From Bifidobacterium animalis subsp. animalis ATCC 25527 (lineage in GTDB: Bacteria; Actinomycetota; Actinomycetes; Actinomycetales; Bifidobacteriaceae): a stretch of DNA of 64,000 bases. Both the position numbers and the translations under genes were made by a program. The stretch covers positions 1,860,001-1,924,000 of the forward strand of contig NC_017834.1 in assembly GCF_000260715.1 (NCBI RefSeq). Reading direction: 5' to 3'. Positions 16,611 through 33,154 of this stretch are shown one piece after another. Below the pieces are notes generated by a model. It ran no database searches, was not told the origin of the DNA, and saw only the letters and a program-made list of their open reading frames with translations. Each line of letters opens with the position of its first letter. Position 1 is the stretch's first letter.

Positions 16611-18446
16611 CTACAGTTCGACGACGACGCCCTCCCAGCCGGCGAGCTCGCCGTTTGCCAAGGATTTCGCGGAGTGGATGGCATCGTACGTGCTCAGGAT
16701 GATCCGGTCTTCGCTCACGCCGTCGGCGAGCAGATCCGCAACCGGCTTCGGCAGCGCGGCATGCCGACCAGTCAGATTGATTGCCACCAGTACGCGCTTC
16801 GCCGTGCCGTCCGCGTTCGCCAGCGTGCGCGTGAACGCGTAGACCTGCTCGTCATCGTCGTCGGCGAGCGCCCATTCCCCGGCCGACACAACGGCACTGT
16901 TATGCCGCAGATTGACAAGCTTCTTATAGAACGCGTAGACCGAATCCGGGTCGTCGAACTGCGCGGCGGCATTGATCTCCACATGGTTCGGGTTCACCGA
17001 CAGCCACGGTTCGGTCTTGGCGTCAGCCGCGGTGAATCCCGCATATTTCGAACCATCCCACTGCATTGGCGTGCGCGCATTGTCGCGGCCGAACAGCGCG
17101 AGCGAATCCATCATGGACTCGCCGGACTGCACCTTCGCCTCTTCGACGCGCTGGCGGTATGCGTTGATCGACTCGAGATCGCGGTACTGGCCGAGTTCCG
17201 TGAAATGCGCACCTGTCATGCCGAGCTCCTCGCCCTGATAGATGTACGGGGTGCCGCGATGCAGGTGGATGAGCATGCCGAAGGCCTTCGCCGAATGCAC
17301 ACGATTCTCCTCATTCGAATCGTCGCCCCAGCGAGTGACCACGCGCGGTTGGTCGTGGTTACAGGTGAACAGACTTGCCCACCCGCGGTCGTGCACGGCC
17401 TCCTGCTGCGCCTTGAGCTGCTCGCGCAGGTGGCGCACATCGAACTTGACGACGTCCCACTTCGAATCGCCCTGGTCAATGCCCACATGGTCGAACAGGA
17501 ACAGCATATCGAGTTCCTTGTGGTCTGGATCGGTGATGTACTCGTTACGCGCAGCGTCCACACCCGGCGCCTCGCCGACGTTCATATAGCCCCCGCGCTT
17601 CTCGAACACCTCACGGCGCATCTCCTGCAGGAACTCGTCGATGCGCGGGCCGTCGGAGGAGAACGGGTACGGGCTCGAGTACCCTTCTGGGCCGGCCGGG
17701 TAGTCATCGATCTCAGAACCCGCTTCGCCCGGAAGACGGCCGTTCTTGTCGACCACCTTGGAGATCTGCGTGATCACGTCCATACGGAAGCCGTCGATGC
17801 CCTTATCCATCCACCAGTTCATCATCCGGTAGACAGCTTGGCGCACGTCGGGGTTCTCCCAGTTGAGGTCGGGCTGTTTCTTGGAGTATTGGTGGAGGAA
17901 GTACTCGCCACGCTTGGTGTCATACTGCCATGCGGAACCACCGAAGTAGGAGCCCCATTCGTTCGGCTCGGCGCCCGGTGCACCCGGTTCCATGCCCGGT
18001 TTGGCGGGGCGCCACCAGTACCAGTCGGCTTTGCTGGAGTTGGGGTCGCGTGACTCCTGGAACCATGCATGCTCGTCGGAGGTGTGATTGACCACGAGGT
18101 CCATGATCACCTTGATGCCGCGCTTGTGCGCTTCGGCGAGCAGCTCGTCCATGTCATCCATCGTGCCGAAGATCGGGTCGATGGCCTCATAGTCAGAAAT
18201 GTCATAGCCATTGTCGTCCTGCGGCGACTGATAGACCGGGCTCAGCCAGATCACATCCACGCCGAGATCGGCAATGTAATCGAGTCGGCTCGTGATGCCC
18301 TTGAGATCGCCGATGCCGTCGCCGTTAGAATCCTGGAAACTCCGCGGATAAATCTGGTACACCACCGCGTTCGCCCACCACGGGTTGGGTGTAGCGCCGT
18401 TCGTACGCACGGAATCGGGAAGCGCAGGCCTATTCATTGCGGTCAT
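16611..18446 (-). CDS. GH13 alpha-glucosidase (oligo-1,6-glucosidase type)
   Basis: The 611-residue enzyme has the GH13 motifs in order: DLVVNHTSDEHAWF (region I), GFRMDVI near residue 221 with the nucleophile Asp, VGEAPG near 290 with the acid/base Glu, and CNHDQPR near 365 with the third Asp. The opening WWANAVVYQIYPRSFQDSNG is typical of intracellular oligo-1,6-glucosidases and alpha-glucosidases, which cleave glucose from isomaltose, panose and related sugars. There is no signal peptide. ATG at 18446 has AAAGGAG (complement 18452-18458) at good spacing. It lies at the edge of the alpha-1,6-sugar region and starts next to the repeat array. Exact linkage preference cannot be read from sequence. 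Confidence 0.92.
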   Translation of the reverse strand: MTAMNRPALPDSVRTNGATPNPWWANAVVYQIYPRSFQDSNGDGIGDLKGITSRLDYIADLGVDVIWLSPVYQSPQDDNGYDISDYEAIDPIFGTMDDMDELLAEAHKRGIKVIMDLVVNHTSDEHAWFQESRDPNSSKADWYWWRPAKPGMEPGAPGAEPNEWGSYFGGSAWQYDTKRGEYFLHQYSKKQPDLNWENPDVRQAVYRMMNWWMDKGIDGFRMDVITQISKVVDKNGRLPGEAGSEIDDYPAGPEGYSSPYPFSSDGPRIDEFLQEMRREVFEKRGGYMNVGEAPGVDAARNEYITDPDHKELDMLFLFDHVGIDQGDSKWDVVKFDVRHLREQLKAQQEAVHDRGWASLFTCNHDQPRVVTRWGDDSNEENRVHSAKAFGMLIHLHRGTPYIYQGEELGMTGAHFTELGQYRDLESINAYRQRVEEAKVQSGESMMDSLALFGRDNARTPMQWDGSKYAGFTAADAKTEPWLSVNPNHVEINAAAQFDDPDSVYAFYKKLVNLRHNSAVVSAGEWALADDDDEQVYAFTRTLANADGTAKRVLVAINLTGRHAALPKPVADLLADGVSEDRIILSTYDAIHSAKSLANGELAGWEGVVVEL

Positions 18447-18570
18447 GGAAGCTCCTTTGCCTTTGAATAACAACCACCAACACTATAGAGATGGCTCCAT
18501 AGTAGGCACCCATGAATTAATTGCCCAGCGTAGTATGCGGACGGGCGTGTGGGAAAGTAATTCCGCGGTC

Positions 18571-19147
18571 ACATGCACGGGAATCTCCGCAAAATCGACC
18601 ATATACGGCGTTTGCGCGGCATACTTTACGGAAGTCTCCGCAAGGAATGCCATGCTGGAGCCTCTTTGCGGTCGGTCATGCGGAAGCATCCGTAAACCAT
18701 GCCGCGGCGGAGTCTGCAAATGGTGTATCTTACGGAACGCTCCGAGAACCATGCCAGCAAAAGACGTTTTTGCGGTCCATCTCAAGGAAACTTCCGAAAA
18801 CCATGCCACAAAGAAGCGCTATTGCGGCGCATCTTACGGAAGCTTCCGAAAAACACGGCGCAAGCGGGTACTCCTGCGGCATATCTCACGGAAGACTCCG
18901 AGAAACAAACCGTTTTGAGACCACCGCGCGGTCGGTCATGCGGAAGGTTCCGGGTAATGAGGTGCCATAGCGGCAATCTGCGGTACGTCGTACGGAAGGT
19001 TCCGGGTAATGAGGTGCCATAGCGGCAATCTGCGGTACGTCGTACGGAAGGTTCCGAGAAACACACCAAGGAGGAATCCAGAAATGGTATATCTTACGGA
19101 AGCTTCCGAAAAACAAGCCGCAAACAAAGCGCAAAACAGCGCTTCCA
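18571..19147 (+). repeat. Array 1: eleven 52-bp repeats with palindromic core
   Basis: Eleven units have cores (ACGGAAGNNTCCG or close variants) starting at 18577, 18628, 18680, 18732, 18784, 18836, 18888, 18940, 18992, 19044 and 19096: one step of 51 bp, then nine of exactly 52. The consensus is ATCTTACGGAAGNTTCCGAA, then AACCATGCCGCAAA, then about 10 variable bases, then TTTGCGGTC. Units 8 and 9 are almost identical; the others differ by 20-40 percent. The period is not a multiple of 3, so the reading frames through it are not real genes. Flanking TTTGCGG and CCGCAAA can pair around the core palindrome. It is not a CRISPR: the conserved part is degenerate and the variable part too short. 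Confidence 0.9.
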
Positions 19148-19246
19148 AGCGCCCATAGGCGCCAAATACGGTGGATAACGGCGAAGTTATCCACAAATTC
19201 CAAATCGGGATTGCACGGCATTCGACACTCCCCTACCGTCGAAAGC

Positions 19247-20203
19247 ATGAAAATAGATTCGCAAATCGAGCGACTCCTCGACGAGTCCCAGAACGCACAC
19301 CGATGCGCGGTGACGACCGACGTCAACCTGCGCCGCAAACTACGCCGCAGATGCGAAAGCGGCGAATTGACCATGCCATACCCGCAACTGTTTGCGCGGA
19401 AGGAAACTTGGGATGCGCTCAATCCGCGCGAGAAAAAGAGACATGTCATACTCGCCCTGGCAATGGTGCGCCCCGACTGGATTTTCTGCGCACAGAGCGC
19501 GGCTTGCCTGTACGGCATAGAACAGTCGTACCAGATTCACGACAATCCGATGATCCACATTGCATCCACACACGAAAGCGGCATATACCGGGCCAGGCGG
19601 AGTGATGCCGTGATGCACCGCGTGTACACGCCAAATCCGCAATACAACGTGATCAATGGAGCCAAGGTCACCACACTGCCGTGCACGATCTACCAATGCG
19701 CGCTCGTGCTGCCGTTCGAACAGATACTGCCGCTCGCAGATTCCGCAGTACGCAGCGGTATGGCGCTCGACGATCTGCGACAGTTCCCCGTTCACAGCGC
19801 GACCGAGGCACTCGCGATCGGCAACGTGCTCGAATACACCGACCCGCGCAGTGAGAACGGCGGCGAAACGCTCGCAAGAAGCCGATTCATCGAACGCGGG
19901 CTCATGATTCCACAGCTGCAGAAGGAGTTCCCGAATCCGCAGAACCCGGAATACCCGTTCCGCGTTGATTTCATTTGGATTCTGCCAGATGGACGCATGA
20001 TTGTCGCCGAATACGACGGCATGACGAAATACGGCAATGACCGCAAGACCATCGCAAACCGCGTGCACAGGGAGAAACTGCGCGACGAAGCGCTGCGGCA
20101 ACACGGCGTCACCGCGATCATCCATTTCGATTATGAGGATTTGCTCAATCCCAACGAACTCATTGCCAAGCTCGTCGCCGCCGGCGTGCCGTACCGCCGC
20201 TAA
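19247..20203 (+). CDS. AbiEi-like N terminus plus DUF559/Vsr-like nuclease domain protein
   Basis: The 318-residue protein has a helical, DNA-binding-like N-terminal part (residues 1-90, LRRKLRRRCESGELTMPYP) of the kind seen in AbiEi-type antitoxin regulators. It ends with a DUF559-type domain: FRVDFIWILPDGRMIVAEYD (about 236-255), then REKLRDEALRQHGVTAI and HFDYEDLLNP. That arrangement (VDF...AEYDG...R...L...G) is the Vsr/PD-(D/E)xK nuclease outline, with D and E candidate metal ligands. ATG at 19247 is chosen over a TTG 36 bp upstream; neither has a strong ribosome site. The gene sits between the two 52-bp arrays. Orphan genes of this type are common in actinobacteria and their function is unknown. 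Confidence 0.7.
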   Translation: MKIDSQIERLLDESQNAHRCAVTTDVNLRRKLRRRCESGELTMPYPQLFARKETWDALNPREKKRHVILALAMVRPDWIFCAQSAACLYGIEQSYQIHDNPMIHIASTHESGIYRARRSDAVMHRVYTPNPQYNVINGAKVTTLPCTIYQCALVLPFEQILPLADSAVRSGMALDDLRQFPVHSATEALAIGNVLEYTDPRSENGGETLARSRFIERGLMIPQLQKEFPNPQNPEYPFRVDFIWILPDGRMIVAEYDGMTKYGNDRKTIANRVHREKLRDEALRQHGVTAIIHFDYEDLLNPNELIAKLVAAGVPYRR

Positions 20204-20230
20204 GCATGCAGCGGATCTGGTCGCGACATG

Positions 20231-20550
20231 GTATGCGGAAGATTCCGAGAACCGTGCCGCAAACGTCGACTTTTGCGGTCGATCATGCGGAAGACTCCGT
20301 AAACCGTGCCTCAAAAGGCATCCCGCGCGGCATGGCTTACGGAAGGTTCCGAGAGTCGTACCGCAAACGGAGACTTCCGCGGTCAGTCTTACGGAAGGTT
20401 CCGTGAAAGCGACTATATTCAGGATTCAGGTCACTTTGCGGTCGAATATACGGACGACTCCGAAAAACAGACCACGAAACGGGGTCTGTGCGGTACAGCT
20501 TACGGAAGACTCTGAGAGCTGTGCCGAAAATGCATGCGGGCGCCGGATTA
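20231..20550 (+). repeat. Array 2: six 52-bp repeats continuing array 1
   Basis: Cores start at 20235, 20287, 20339, 20391, 20450 and 20502: steps of 52, 52, 52, 59 and 52. The units are in the same orientation and of the same family as array 1. Clear examples of the pairing ends are CCGCAAACGTCGACTTTTGC (20258-20277) and ACCGCAAAC. The 59-bp step carries a longer variable segment. The array ends at the stop codon of the GH36 gene on the other strand. Confidence 0.88.
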
Positions 20551-22440
20551 CGTAAGAGGCTGCAATACGCGCAGCTCGCACTCGCCGTAATGCAGCGTGA
20601 GCGCGAGGTCTTCGCCGATGCTCAGATGCACACGTCCGCCGGTCTGCGGATCGAACACCGTGAGAGGAGATTCCGTCGCGCGAATGTGGGCGGTCTGCGG
20701 GGCATCGGCGTTCAATCCGACGAACAGCAGTACCTCGTCGCCGCGGAACGTATTGCGAATGCCGAGTGGAACGTCGCCATGCACCGGGTCTGCGAGCAGA
20801 CTGTCGAGCACCGGCACGCCGACGCCGTCCGGATGCGTGAGATTGCCGTCGGCATCGAACAGCGGGGCGAGAAGATCGGAATCGGTCTCGCCAAGCTTGT
20901 CGGAACAGTAGATCGGGCCACCGCTTATCCAGCGCAACAGCATATGCGTGCGCGCGTGCGGGTGGCGGGTCCAGAACATATCCCAGTCGCAGTAGCAGAG
21001 GCAGCCCATGAGCAGCGAACAGTACGCGTTCTCGATGGCATGCTCGGTGAGCGATTCGGGAATGTTCGGGAAGAAGTCGTCGCTCGTGCGGGCGACTCCC
21101 TCAGCACAGCGCTGCCAATAGTTCTCGGGAGTCATGCCCATGCAGTGGATCACGGCGAGATGCGCGTATTCCCAATCACCATTGTCATCTTCGTGACGTA
21201 TCCAGTTGGTGGCGTATTCCACGGCATCATGGCGAACGCCTAGAGACGCATAGGATTCCAGGCCGCGTGTGAGCACAGGAAGTGTGCCCTGCGAATCCAC
21301 CTTCACGAAGTCGATGCCGGCGCCGTCCAAGTGCGTGTTCCATGTACGCCAGAACAGCGCTGCACACTCCGGATTCGCAGTGGGGATTGCCATGCCATTG
21401 GGTAGTGTTTCGAACGCGGATCGGCTCACGAGGAGCTTGGGATCCTCAACGCGCGCGTCCCCATACGGATACTCCTGCTTGTAGTACTCGTACCAATCAT
21501 CGTCGGATTCGGGCTTGCCGGCGAGCGCGTCCACATCCACGCCATGCCAATACCCTTGGAACGCCTGCCATACGCCGACGTACCGCACGCCGAAGTCGTG
21601 TTTGAGCACGTCAATGGTATGCGAGAGTCCCTGCGGGAAGCGCGTTGTGTCGGCGTCAAAACCGGTTAGCTTACCGTTCTCGACTTGAGACCAACCGTCG
21701 TCTATGAGCACCCACGAAACGGGCACGTGTTTGGCGGCGAACTCCTCCATTTTGGCGATAATGGCCTGCTCGCTCACGTTCGTGCCGAGCGAGTCCCAGG
21801 TGCACCAGCCAAAACCGCGCAACGATTCCGGCAGAGTCTGCTTCCACAATCTCCCCAAGCCACCGTTCTGCGACATGACCCACTCCGCGCATCCCCGAAT
21901 CAGCTCGTAAGGATCCTCGACTTTCCGATCGCTTTGCCGATGGACGAGCAGTGGCCCCTGCAATTGCACACGGTCAACCTGATTCGTGGAGACATCGAGC
22001 AGCAAGTCATTGTGGCCTCGCCCATCGCCGCGAATGTCAACGCGCATCTCGTGACGGAACACCGGCATCATCACATGCCACGCCTTCGCCGATTTCCACA
22101 GCACCAGCTGGGTGCGCTCCGGTATGTCACAGAAATGCTCGACCCATGCCGGCCGCATCCACCATTCCTTGTGCTGGTAAAGGCACAGAATCTGCCCCAC
22201 TGGTTTCAATCTGCCCAATTGCAGCCGTACGGACACCGACCGCCCGGCCAGCAATGTGGGATGCTCGAGAATCGGATTGGATTCCGGCAGCTGCGCACTT
22301 ATCTCCGTCACCGTTGCGCTACGCAGTGTGCGCCACGGTATTTTGTGTTCGCTCACCGAGTCCGGGGGCAGTTCGACTTCGCCGCGCTCATCGAACGGCC
22401 CGCATTCGGTATGCGCCACCACCGATCTCACCGTTATCAT
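20548..22440 (-). CDS. GH36 alpha-galactosidase of the raffinose-synthase/Sip1-like subgroup
   Basis: The 630-residue protein carries FGWCTWDSLGTNVSE and VLIDDGWSQ, typical of the raffinose synthase/seed-imbibition branch of GH36. FVKVDSQG (about residue 380) holds the likely nucleophile Asp and RTSDDFFP (about 453) the likely acid/base. There is no signal peptide, so it acts in the cytoplasm on imported alpha-galactosides or performs transglycosylation. ATG at 22440 follows AGGAGGGAG. It is unlike the second GH36 at 27972-30194, so the cluster holds two mechanistically related but divergent enzymes. It is separated from the transporter genes by a 900-bp repeat-rich gap and is probably transcribed separately. 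Confidence 0.85.
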   Translation of the reverse strand: MITVRSVVAHTECGPFDERGEVELPPDSVSEHKIPWRTLRSATVTEISAQLPESNPILEHPTLLAGRSVSVRLQLGRLKPVGQILCLYQHKEWWMRPAWVEHFCDIPERTQLVLWKSAKAWHVMMPVFRHEMRVDIRGDGRGHNDLLLDVSTNQVDRVQLQGPLLVHRQSDRKVEDPYELIRGCAEWVMSQNGGLGRLWKQTLPESLRGFGWCTWDSLGTNVSEQAIIAKMEEFAAKHVPVSWVLIDDGWSQVENGKLTGFDADTTRFPQGLSHTIDVLKHDFGVRYVGVWQAFQGYWHGVDVDALAGKPESDDDWYEYYKQEYPYGDARVEDPKLLVSRSAFETLPNGMAIPTANPECAALFWRTWNTHLDGAGIDFVKVDSQGTLPVLTRGLESYASLGVRHDAVEYATNWIRHEDDNGDWEYAHLAVIHCMGMTPENYWQRCAEGVARTSDDFFPNIPESLTEHAIENAYCSLLMGCLCYCDWDMFWTRHPHARTHMLLRWISGGPIYCSDKLGETDSDLLAPLFDADGNLTHPDGVGVPVLDSLLADPVHGDVPLGIRNTFRGDEVLLFVGLNADAPQTAHIRATESPLTVFDPQTGGRVHLSIGEDLALTLHYGECELRVLQPLT

Positions 22441-25295: not shown

Positions 25296-26738
<1,443 letters not shown>

Positions 26739-33084: not shown

Positions 33085-33154
33085 TCTGCCTTCTGATCGG
33101 CACTGCGCGGCACGGTTTGCGGAAGAGTCTGAATACGGCGGCAGTGGTTGCGAA

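Follow-up and report, generated by a model that had tools for sequence, protein, structure and literature searches.

We analysed a window of 64,000 nucleotides from the chromosome of Bifidobacterium animalis subsp. animalis ATCC 25527 (C1:1860001-1924000 of the 1,932,693-bp genome), in which a gene for a 318-aa protein, predicted to join an AbiEi-like DNA-binding part to a Vsr-type nuclease, lies between two arrays of regularly spaced dyad units (Table 1). A sequence-only reading of this DNA had counted 17 units (11 + 6) with all but two steps at 52 bp, and the count held: 13 of the 15 within-array steps are exactly 52 bp, and a spaced core-pair pattern matched 14 times in the window versus not once in 100 dinucleotide shuffles. 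Each unit is a 44-bp dyad whose strongest columns are GCGG(C/T), CGGAA, TTCCG and (G/A)CCGC (consensus TCnGCGGCAnATCTTACGGAAGCnTCCGnAAAACnnACCGCnAA, from 86 units). Of the palindrome enclosed by TTTGCGG and CCGCAAA in that reading the dyad stands, but the outer motif is genome-wide merely a tendency; and the units are more diverged than the 40 percent then estimated (pairwise identity over 52 bp: minimum 0.38, median 0.56, maximum 0.83). The stretch between units, earlier called hypervariable, is indeed a linker close to random, with almost no information in B. animalis units genome-wide. Clustered regularly interspaced short palindromic repeats (CRISPR), which that reading had set aside, consist of near-identical repeats and unique spacers, whereas these units are diverged dyads of 38-83% identity (cas genes were not searched for). 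One lone weak unit of the same dyad family (33104-33147, matrix score 18.5) stands apart from the arrays.

Table 1. Features of the array locus (window coordinates)
Feature	Position	Strand	Remarks
Alpha-amylase ORF (open reading frame)	16614-18473	minus	Alpha-amylase (Pfam)
Array 1	18562..19124 (genome C1:1878562-1879124)	+	11 dyad units; steps 51, then 9 x 52 bp
Recent tandem duplication within array 1	18928..19031	+	adjacent 52-nt stretches starting 18928/18980, 92% identical
Inverted DnaA-box-like pair, 5' of AbiEi-Vsr gene	19170..19195	.	GGTGGATAA (19170-19178; reverse complement TTATCCACC) + TTATCCACA (19187-19195)
AbiEi-Vsr gene (predicted fold)	19247..20203	+	ATG at 19247; 318 aa; between arrays 1 and 2
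Two overlapping ORFs 3' of AbiEi-Vsr gene		+	no Pfam family
Array 2	20220..20530 (genome C1:1880220-1880530)	+	6 dyad units; steps 52, 52, 52, 59, 52 bp
Raffinose synthase-type ORF	20551-22440	minus	Raffinose_syn (Pfam)

In the predicted fold, residues ~1-199 of the protein form the AbiEi-like part, with the winged helix and nucleotidyltransferase-like domain of the AbiEi fold, and residues ~200-318 form a Vsr-type PD-(D/E)XK nuclease domain. The nuclease motif is near-invariant (E207 and D241 in 33 of 33 cases, E255 and K261 in 32 of 33 with one gap), making these four residues candidates for a catalytic role. The window protein had no sequence match in the PDB and none in NCBIfam; a 99% identical protein is found in B. 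animalis subsp. lactis CNCM I-2494. A family member from Bifidobacterium vansinderenii (P0010) is labelled 'CTP synthase' in databases, a name that is apparently wrong given the predicted fold of the family.

Members of the family occur in 36 of 41 sampled bifidobacterial genomes, with 1 to 12 matches each. B. animalis has four further family places, at 672, 1451, 1532 and 1697 kb (we left out a sixth, weak match at 765 kb with E 0.044). Strong 52-bp arrays that differ in sequence accompany the 672-kb gene on its flanks (z 9.6 and 11.5) and the 1451-kb gene (z 11.3; missed by narrower windows, z 3.5 and 2.9). The 1532-kb place has a weaker set of four dyads 53-54 bp apart, and the 1697-kb place, a broken gene, four weaker dyads of which three are 73-86 bp apart; both sets lie below z 6 and were found with seeds picked by eye. 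A second, six-unit array with a 52-bp step belongs to the GAGACAAACCAAG family of the 1451-kb gene (L067 528-788, ~184.0-184.3 kb); a protein search found no family gene there. Dispersal of arrays is wide for two families and amounts to a single array for one more. That no paralog sits at an array of the same motif had first suggested a gene that merely interrupts an array; this incidental-gene reading was ruled out because the paralogs carry arrays of other motifs. Separately, dispersed lone long dyads of the form TGCGTAAAAAGAGTCA..TGTCYCTTTTTACGCA were seen in B. animalis stretches L062, L063, L064 and L067; they are akin to the units at the broken gene, and their matrix gave 22 matches in 220 kb, some of them weak.

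To the four further B. animalis places we added the 30 loci listed from more than 150 family matches, giving 34 loci (the broken gene entered as L082 in two array-signal tests and as L081 in the DnaA-box and period-set tests). A periodic signal at z 6 was present on 33 of the 68 flanks versus 15 of 159 control windows; the period was no multiple of 3 on 22 of these flanks and in two of these windows. Finer windows gave z 6 at 50-54 or 60-64 bp on 30 flanks of 22 loci; on 23 of these flanks, which belong to 16 loci, the period is again no multiple of 3, and one of the remaining seven (L250) is coding by eye. Periods of 52, 53, 61 and 62 bp reached z>=5.5 on 25 of 68 flanks and at 18 of 34 loci, compared with no flank for each of four other period sets and with 18 of 377 other 1-kb windows, array stretches included. 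The consensus was dyad-symmetric (z>2) in 20 of the 30 array signals and in 16 of the 23 with periods not divisible by 3, and the motifs differ between the loci that were inspected. On the protein tree the period classes show weak clustering (4 changes versus 6.6 after shuffling; as low in 19 and 24 of 500), in a test that includes one false label, L250. A link between the gene and its flanking arrays is supported by these comparisons, which extend to the family what had been described as a nuclease-like gene flanked by arrays. In the genome of a second species, G775, an ORF between two arrays likewise proved to be related to the window gene (31%, E 3e-50).

The region 5' of the window gene contains an inverted pair of DnaA-box-like sequences: in the box types that PMC2430713 gives for B. 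longum, GGTGGATAA corresponds to type E and the perfect TTATCCACA to type A. The latter occurs <= 300 bp upstream of 24 of the 34 family genes, where most copies lie at -58 to -60 or -77 to -93; of 1164 control windows, 11 contain it. The G775 gene has one such box, and L128 has none within the 700 bases read. Between dnaA and dnaN of B. animalis TTATCCACA is found seven times, and four times in 153 kb elsewhere. This distribution suggests that the family genes may be controlled by replication initiation.

A genome-wide search for the 52-bp unit, proposed in the sequence-only reading, located the array type of the window at ~20 further places in the same genome, the best 150 of 815 candidates being scored. 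A matrix rescan mapped 120 units in 23 clusters, including three single units, over the stretches that were fetched. By simple ORF calls the arrays are intergenic, mostly <= ~220 bp past a stop codon; some calls overlap an array (e.g. at 25670 and 538745), which we take to mean that start codons were placed too early. The flanking ORFs (20 of 30 scanned) have no shared theme, and the arrays were on that ground rejected as operators of a regulon. We place the origin at the beginning of C1, given dnaA at 122-1882 (dnaA and dnaN were recognised by eye from the ORFs). Each of the 19 array centres is <= 560 kb away from it (Kolmogorov-Smirnov test, p 5.7e-5; single units 29826 and 1893104 excluded, two double arrays merged). 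Of the units, 87 fall to one side of the origin and 33 to the opposite side. That the stretch from 560 kb to 1.60 Mb is empty follows mainly from the complete + strand list of 69 pairs, which has no unit pair between 559.7 kb and 1601.8 kb; at least four single two-mismatch cores do occur there.

Among 112 Bifidobacterium genomes, a profile of 86 units, with at most 56 candidates per genome scored, found the family in its own genome only (78 matches); four genomes gave one weak match each and have related but different dyads. Core pair patterns matched the own genome only. With a first profile, 18 of 29 relatives had given matches at E<=1; the own genome was counted apart from chance-level matches.

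Sites such as parS and those of RacA are symmetric and concentrated around the origin. The arrays resemble them in clustering origin-proximally, and differ in being long and regular, in a motif found in 1 of 112 species and in having a nuclease gene inside an array. One might accordingly picture an origin-region organiser or segregation element with centromere-like arrays, loosely of the parS/RacA kind, and a nuclease fold that is now structural. The placing of all 19 centres, the DnaA boxes and the want of a common function among 20 flanking genes would suit such an element, as would G775, in which B. animalis dnaA finds its relative by tblastn and four arrays lie ~50-106 kb from that dnaA (the other eight are on contigs that were not placed). 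A near-invariant nuclease motif is, however, unexpected for a structural role, and the narrow distribution of the motif among congeners, the several gene copies per genome and the uneven arms also speak against it; we regard this explanation as unlikely, and rank it second among the rivals.

The arrays of G775 belong to a family of their own, GGCACTT-N19/20-AAGTGCC, with 12 arrays of 3-4 units each in the stretches fetched and 33 centre steps of 61 to 62.5 bp, one of them to a weak unit. Its pattern was matched in 1 of the 112 genomes. The half-site is similar to that of B. animalis, and an fhaA-like gene has an array in its upstream interval in both genomes.

A scan of species genomes with a pattern that required 52-bp spacing yielded 69 stretches; periodicity was counted on all of them and 16 were inspected, of which many were chance or coding and some were genuine arrays at 51-52 bp, from Bacillota and from other taxa. 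Since the spacing was a condition of the search, we do not count these stretches as evidence for 52 bp. At a Coriobacteriaceae locus found by array DNA alone, a family gene lies beside the array (hidden Markov model E 4e-83; BLASTP 32%), and that genome has further unit pairs away from the gene. Pairs of patterns with free spacing matched in 6 of 348 genomes from the phylum to which the L111 genome belongs and in 6 of 346 Actinomycetota; they were repeated only in the own genome, the rest being single, with one (the seed genome) at 52 bp. Neither viral contigs (one pattern) nor plasmids gave a match, and an origin of the arrays in mobile DNA found no support from them.

Several other dyad arrays came to light in these scans. 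Arrays at 51-52 bp occur in Bacillaceae (L111, L105, L096, L090), Paenibacillus agaridevorans (L132) and Trichococcus (L124, L140); these arrays of Bacillota lie near gene ends and terminators, as seen in a search requiring 52 bp. In Trichococcus flocculiformis (L140 3264-4472) a different but nuclease-related gene, with a NERD domain (PF08378, E 9e-11), lies between two 52-bp arrays, a position like that of the AbiEi-Vsr gene in the window. Lachnospiraceae GAM79 has 52-bp tandem arrays of the form GCCCCGGAAG..TTCCGACAAGCGGGGC at two places (L142 2700-3420, L122 7530-7840), enclosed by long inverted repeats that recur at both (by eye), which looks like a separate element. Upstream of an rlmH-like ORF (by eye), two Bifidobacterium genomes (L181, L182 1492-1580) have a pair of dyads at a distance of 45 bp, with a GGTC-type half-site as in B. 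animalis. Finally, a 52-bp array at L103 4830-5000 comes from a metagenome-assembled genome labelled Klebsiella pneumoniae, probably wrongly, as the sequence is high-GC and by eye not enterobacterial.

The strongest regularity of the arrays is their spacing. Of 97 within-array steps in B. animalis, 88 are 52 bp and five 51 bp, with one each of 40, 59, 103 and 104 bp. Linker identity is 36.6% between neighbouring units and 30.9% between different arrays, versus 25.7% by chance, which implies ~1.4 changes per site; with an assumed indel:substitution ratio of 0.03-0.1, only 16-57% of linkers would be expected to keep their length. Because the linkers are near-saturated and yet 93 of 97 steps are 51-52 bp, selection on array geometry is supported, as had been proposed at the outset. 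Across the gene family, periods of ~52 and ~62 bp, about five and six helical turns, stand out against the four other period sets. Spacing that drifts freely at homologous loci, named in advance as the outcome that would count against this, was looked for among family loci of other genomes and not seen. Simple slippage, in which a 52-bp unit was tandemly duplicated and then diverged neutrally, could point to the one recent duplication inside array 1 and to a similarity that is slightly higher between neighbours than between different arrays (0.575 vs 0.521). It does not account for constant steps between saturated linkers, nor for the orientation of adjacent units at 51-52 bp, which is flipped in 25 of 93 cases with the centre-to-centre step kept, as the dyad symmetry allows; and unrelated arrays of other species have the same two periods. 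Slippage alone is the least probable of the explanations considered here, and highly improbable.

What recognises the unit is indicated by its half-sites. In 120 B. animalis units, own halves pair at 11.72 of 22 positions versus 11.98 when shuffled (z -1.6), so that there is no covariation and the halves appear to be conserved singly, as for a dimer on duplex DNA. The sequence-only reading had offered proteins aligned on one face of the helix or, instead, RNA hairpins; the former fits the spacing, and the units fit double-stranded protein sites rather than hairpins in B. animalis. A hairpin, transcribed or extruded as a cruciform and recognised in that form, would be consistent with one result from G775, where covariation within the unit is seen at six positions outside GGCAC (3.26 of 6 versus 2.34 shuffled, z 4.4, 31 units; 2.64 when paired with the neighbouring unit of the same array). 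We have no firm explanation for this covariation, which could reflect a longer stem or palindrome-templated repair. The inner nine positions of the same units do not covary (z -1.1), however, and Rfam gave no match within window positions 17500-21600; together with the B. animalis halves this makes recognition as a hairpin very unlikely.

Among known systems, one close in fold is the AbiE type IV toxin-antitoxin system, whose AbiEi (Streptococcus agalactiae, 6y8q) and the related Rv2827c (1zel) have the AbiEi fold in common with the window protein. According to the operator descriptions in PMC7319586, AbiEi recognises two inverted repeats of 23 bp that are separated by 3 bp; at the Rv2827c promoter there are two pairs in tandem, with 13 bp inside a pair and 4 bp from one pair to the next. 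Our own sums from these operators are ~53 bp (assuming a similar gap) and 63 bp, which by analogy agree with both array period classes. Unlike in AbiE, the protein here has a fused Vsr-type nuclease, a Pfam scan of the four neighbouring ORFs at the window locus found no AbiEii (DUF1814) toxin gene, and there are DnaA boxes and long arrays of sites, at one or both sides of the gene and elsewhere on the chromosome. Vsr-like nucleases and the homing endonuclease I-Bth0305I (3r3p) differ in that here an AbiEi-like part is fused and arrays are paired with the gene. REPIN-RAYT systems, as outlined in PMC3116915, are similar in having a gene beside its own repeat family and dispersed intergenic palindromic repeats, but here the units are diverged and helically phased and the protein is of a predicted AbiEi-Vsr type. 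A RAYT was rejected: no Y1 transposase (PF01797) was found in the two genomes searched, with the control positive in 5 of 14 known genomes. The system is assigned to neither REPIN-RAYT nor AbiE, and in the open PMC literature we found no study of such a gene-array system.

An alternative is a selfish pair, with a history like that of REPIN-RAYT or of a homing endonuclease, in which the Vsr-type nuclease would nick or break the arrays and repair would copy units and sometimes the gene, leaving arrays as targets and by-products. Such a history is rather unlikely, though it is the main rival to an operator role; the operator role, this history and an origin organiser do not fully exclude one another. 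It is disfavoured by units that are old and diverged rather than near-identical, at a spacing that was kept, by perfect DnaA boxes in 24 of 34 promoters, and by the origin-proximal placing and the missing Y1 transposase.

We consider it likely, then, that the arrays are tandem AbiEi-type operators for the cognate nuclease, forming with its gene a unit that is linked to replication. Starting from what was computed here, namely the sites, their spacing, the pairing of gene and arrays, the predicted fold, the conserved motif and the DnaA boxes, we infer binding, cutting, DnaA control and a physiological role as follows. Two subunits of the AbiEi-like protein, whose gene lies between the arrays, would bind each 44-bp dyad, and a step of 52 bp would separate successive sites by five helical turns and so align the bound protein on one face; an operator array for the AbiEi part, helically phased for regular assembly, is the best-supported core of this proposal. 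Gene and flanking arrays would belong together as one unit, other arrays of the family would lie elsewhere on the chromosome, origin-proximal in B. animalis, and the promoter DnaA boxes would couple the gene to replication initiation. The chromosomal arrays would then hold the nuclease in a phased, regulated assembly, most likely as a replication-linked genome-defence or addiction device. Two points weigh slightly against the operator-array interpretation: seven of the 30 array signals have periods that coding can mimic, and only one of the 69 array stretches from other genomes holds a family gene.

A bolder version can be put forward only tentatively. It would make this a new two-component system of Actinomycetota, in which a DnaA-controlled AbiEi-Vsr nuclease is restrained by phased arrays of its own operator. 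The arrays would mark the replicating chromosome as self; loss of occupancy, of the arrays or of DnaA control would free the nuclease against invading or mis-replicating DNA, and private motifs would allow several orthogonal systems per cell.

These observations link a widespread bifidobacterial protein family to a quantised geometry of about five or six helical turns and to DnaA boxes. If the proposed binding is true, the family would offer many natural, perhaps orthogonal, protein-array pairs for direct tests of helical phasing. It would also represent a new way of controlling a chromosomal nuclease and offer a handle for studying how the bifidobacterial origin region is organised.
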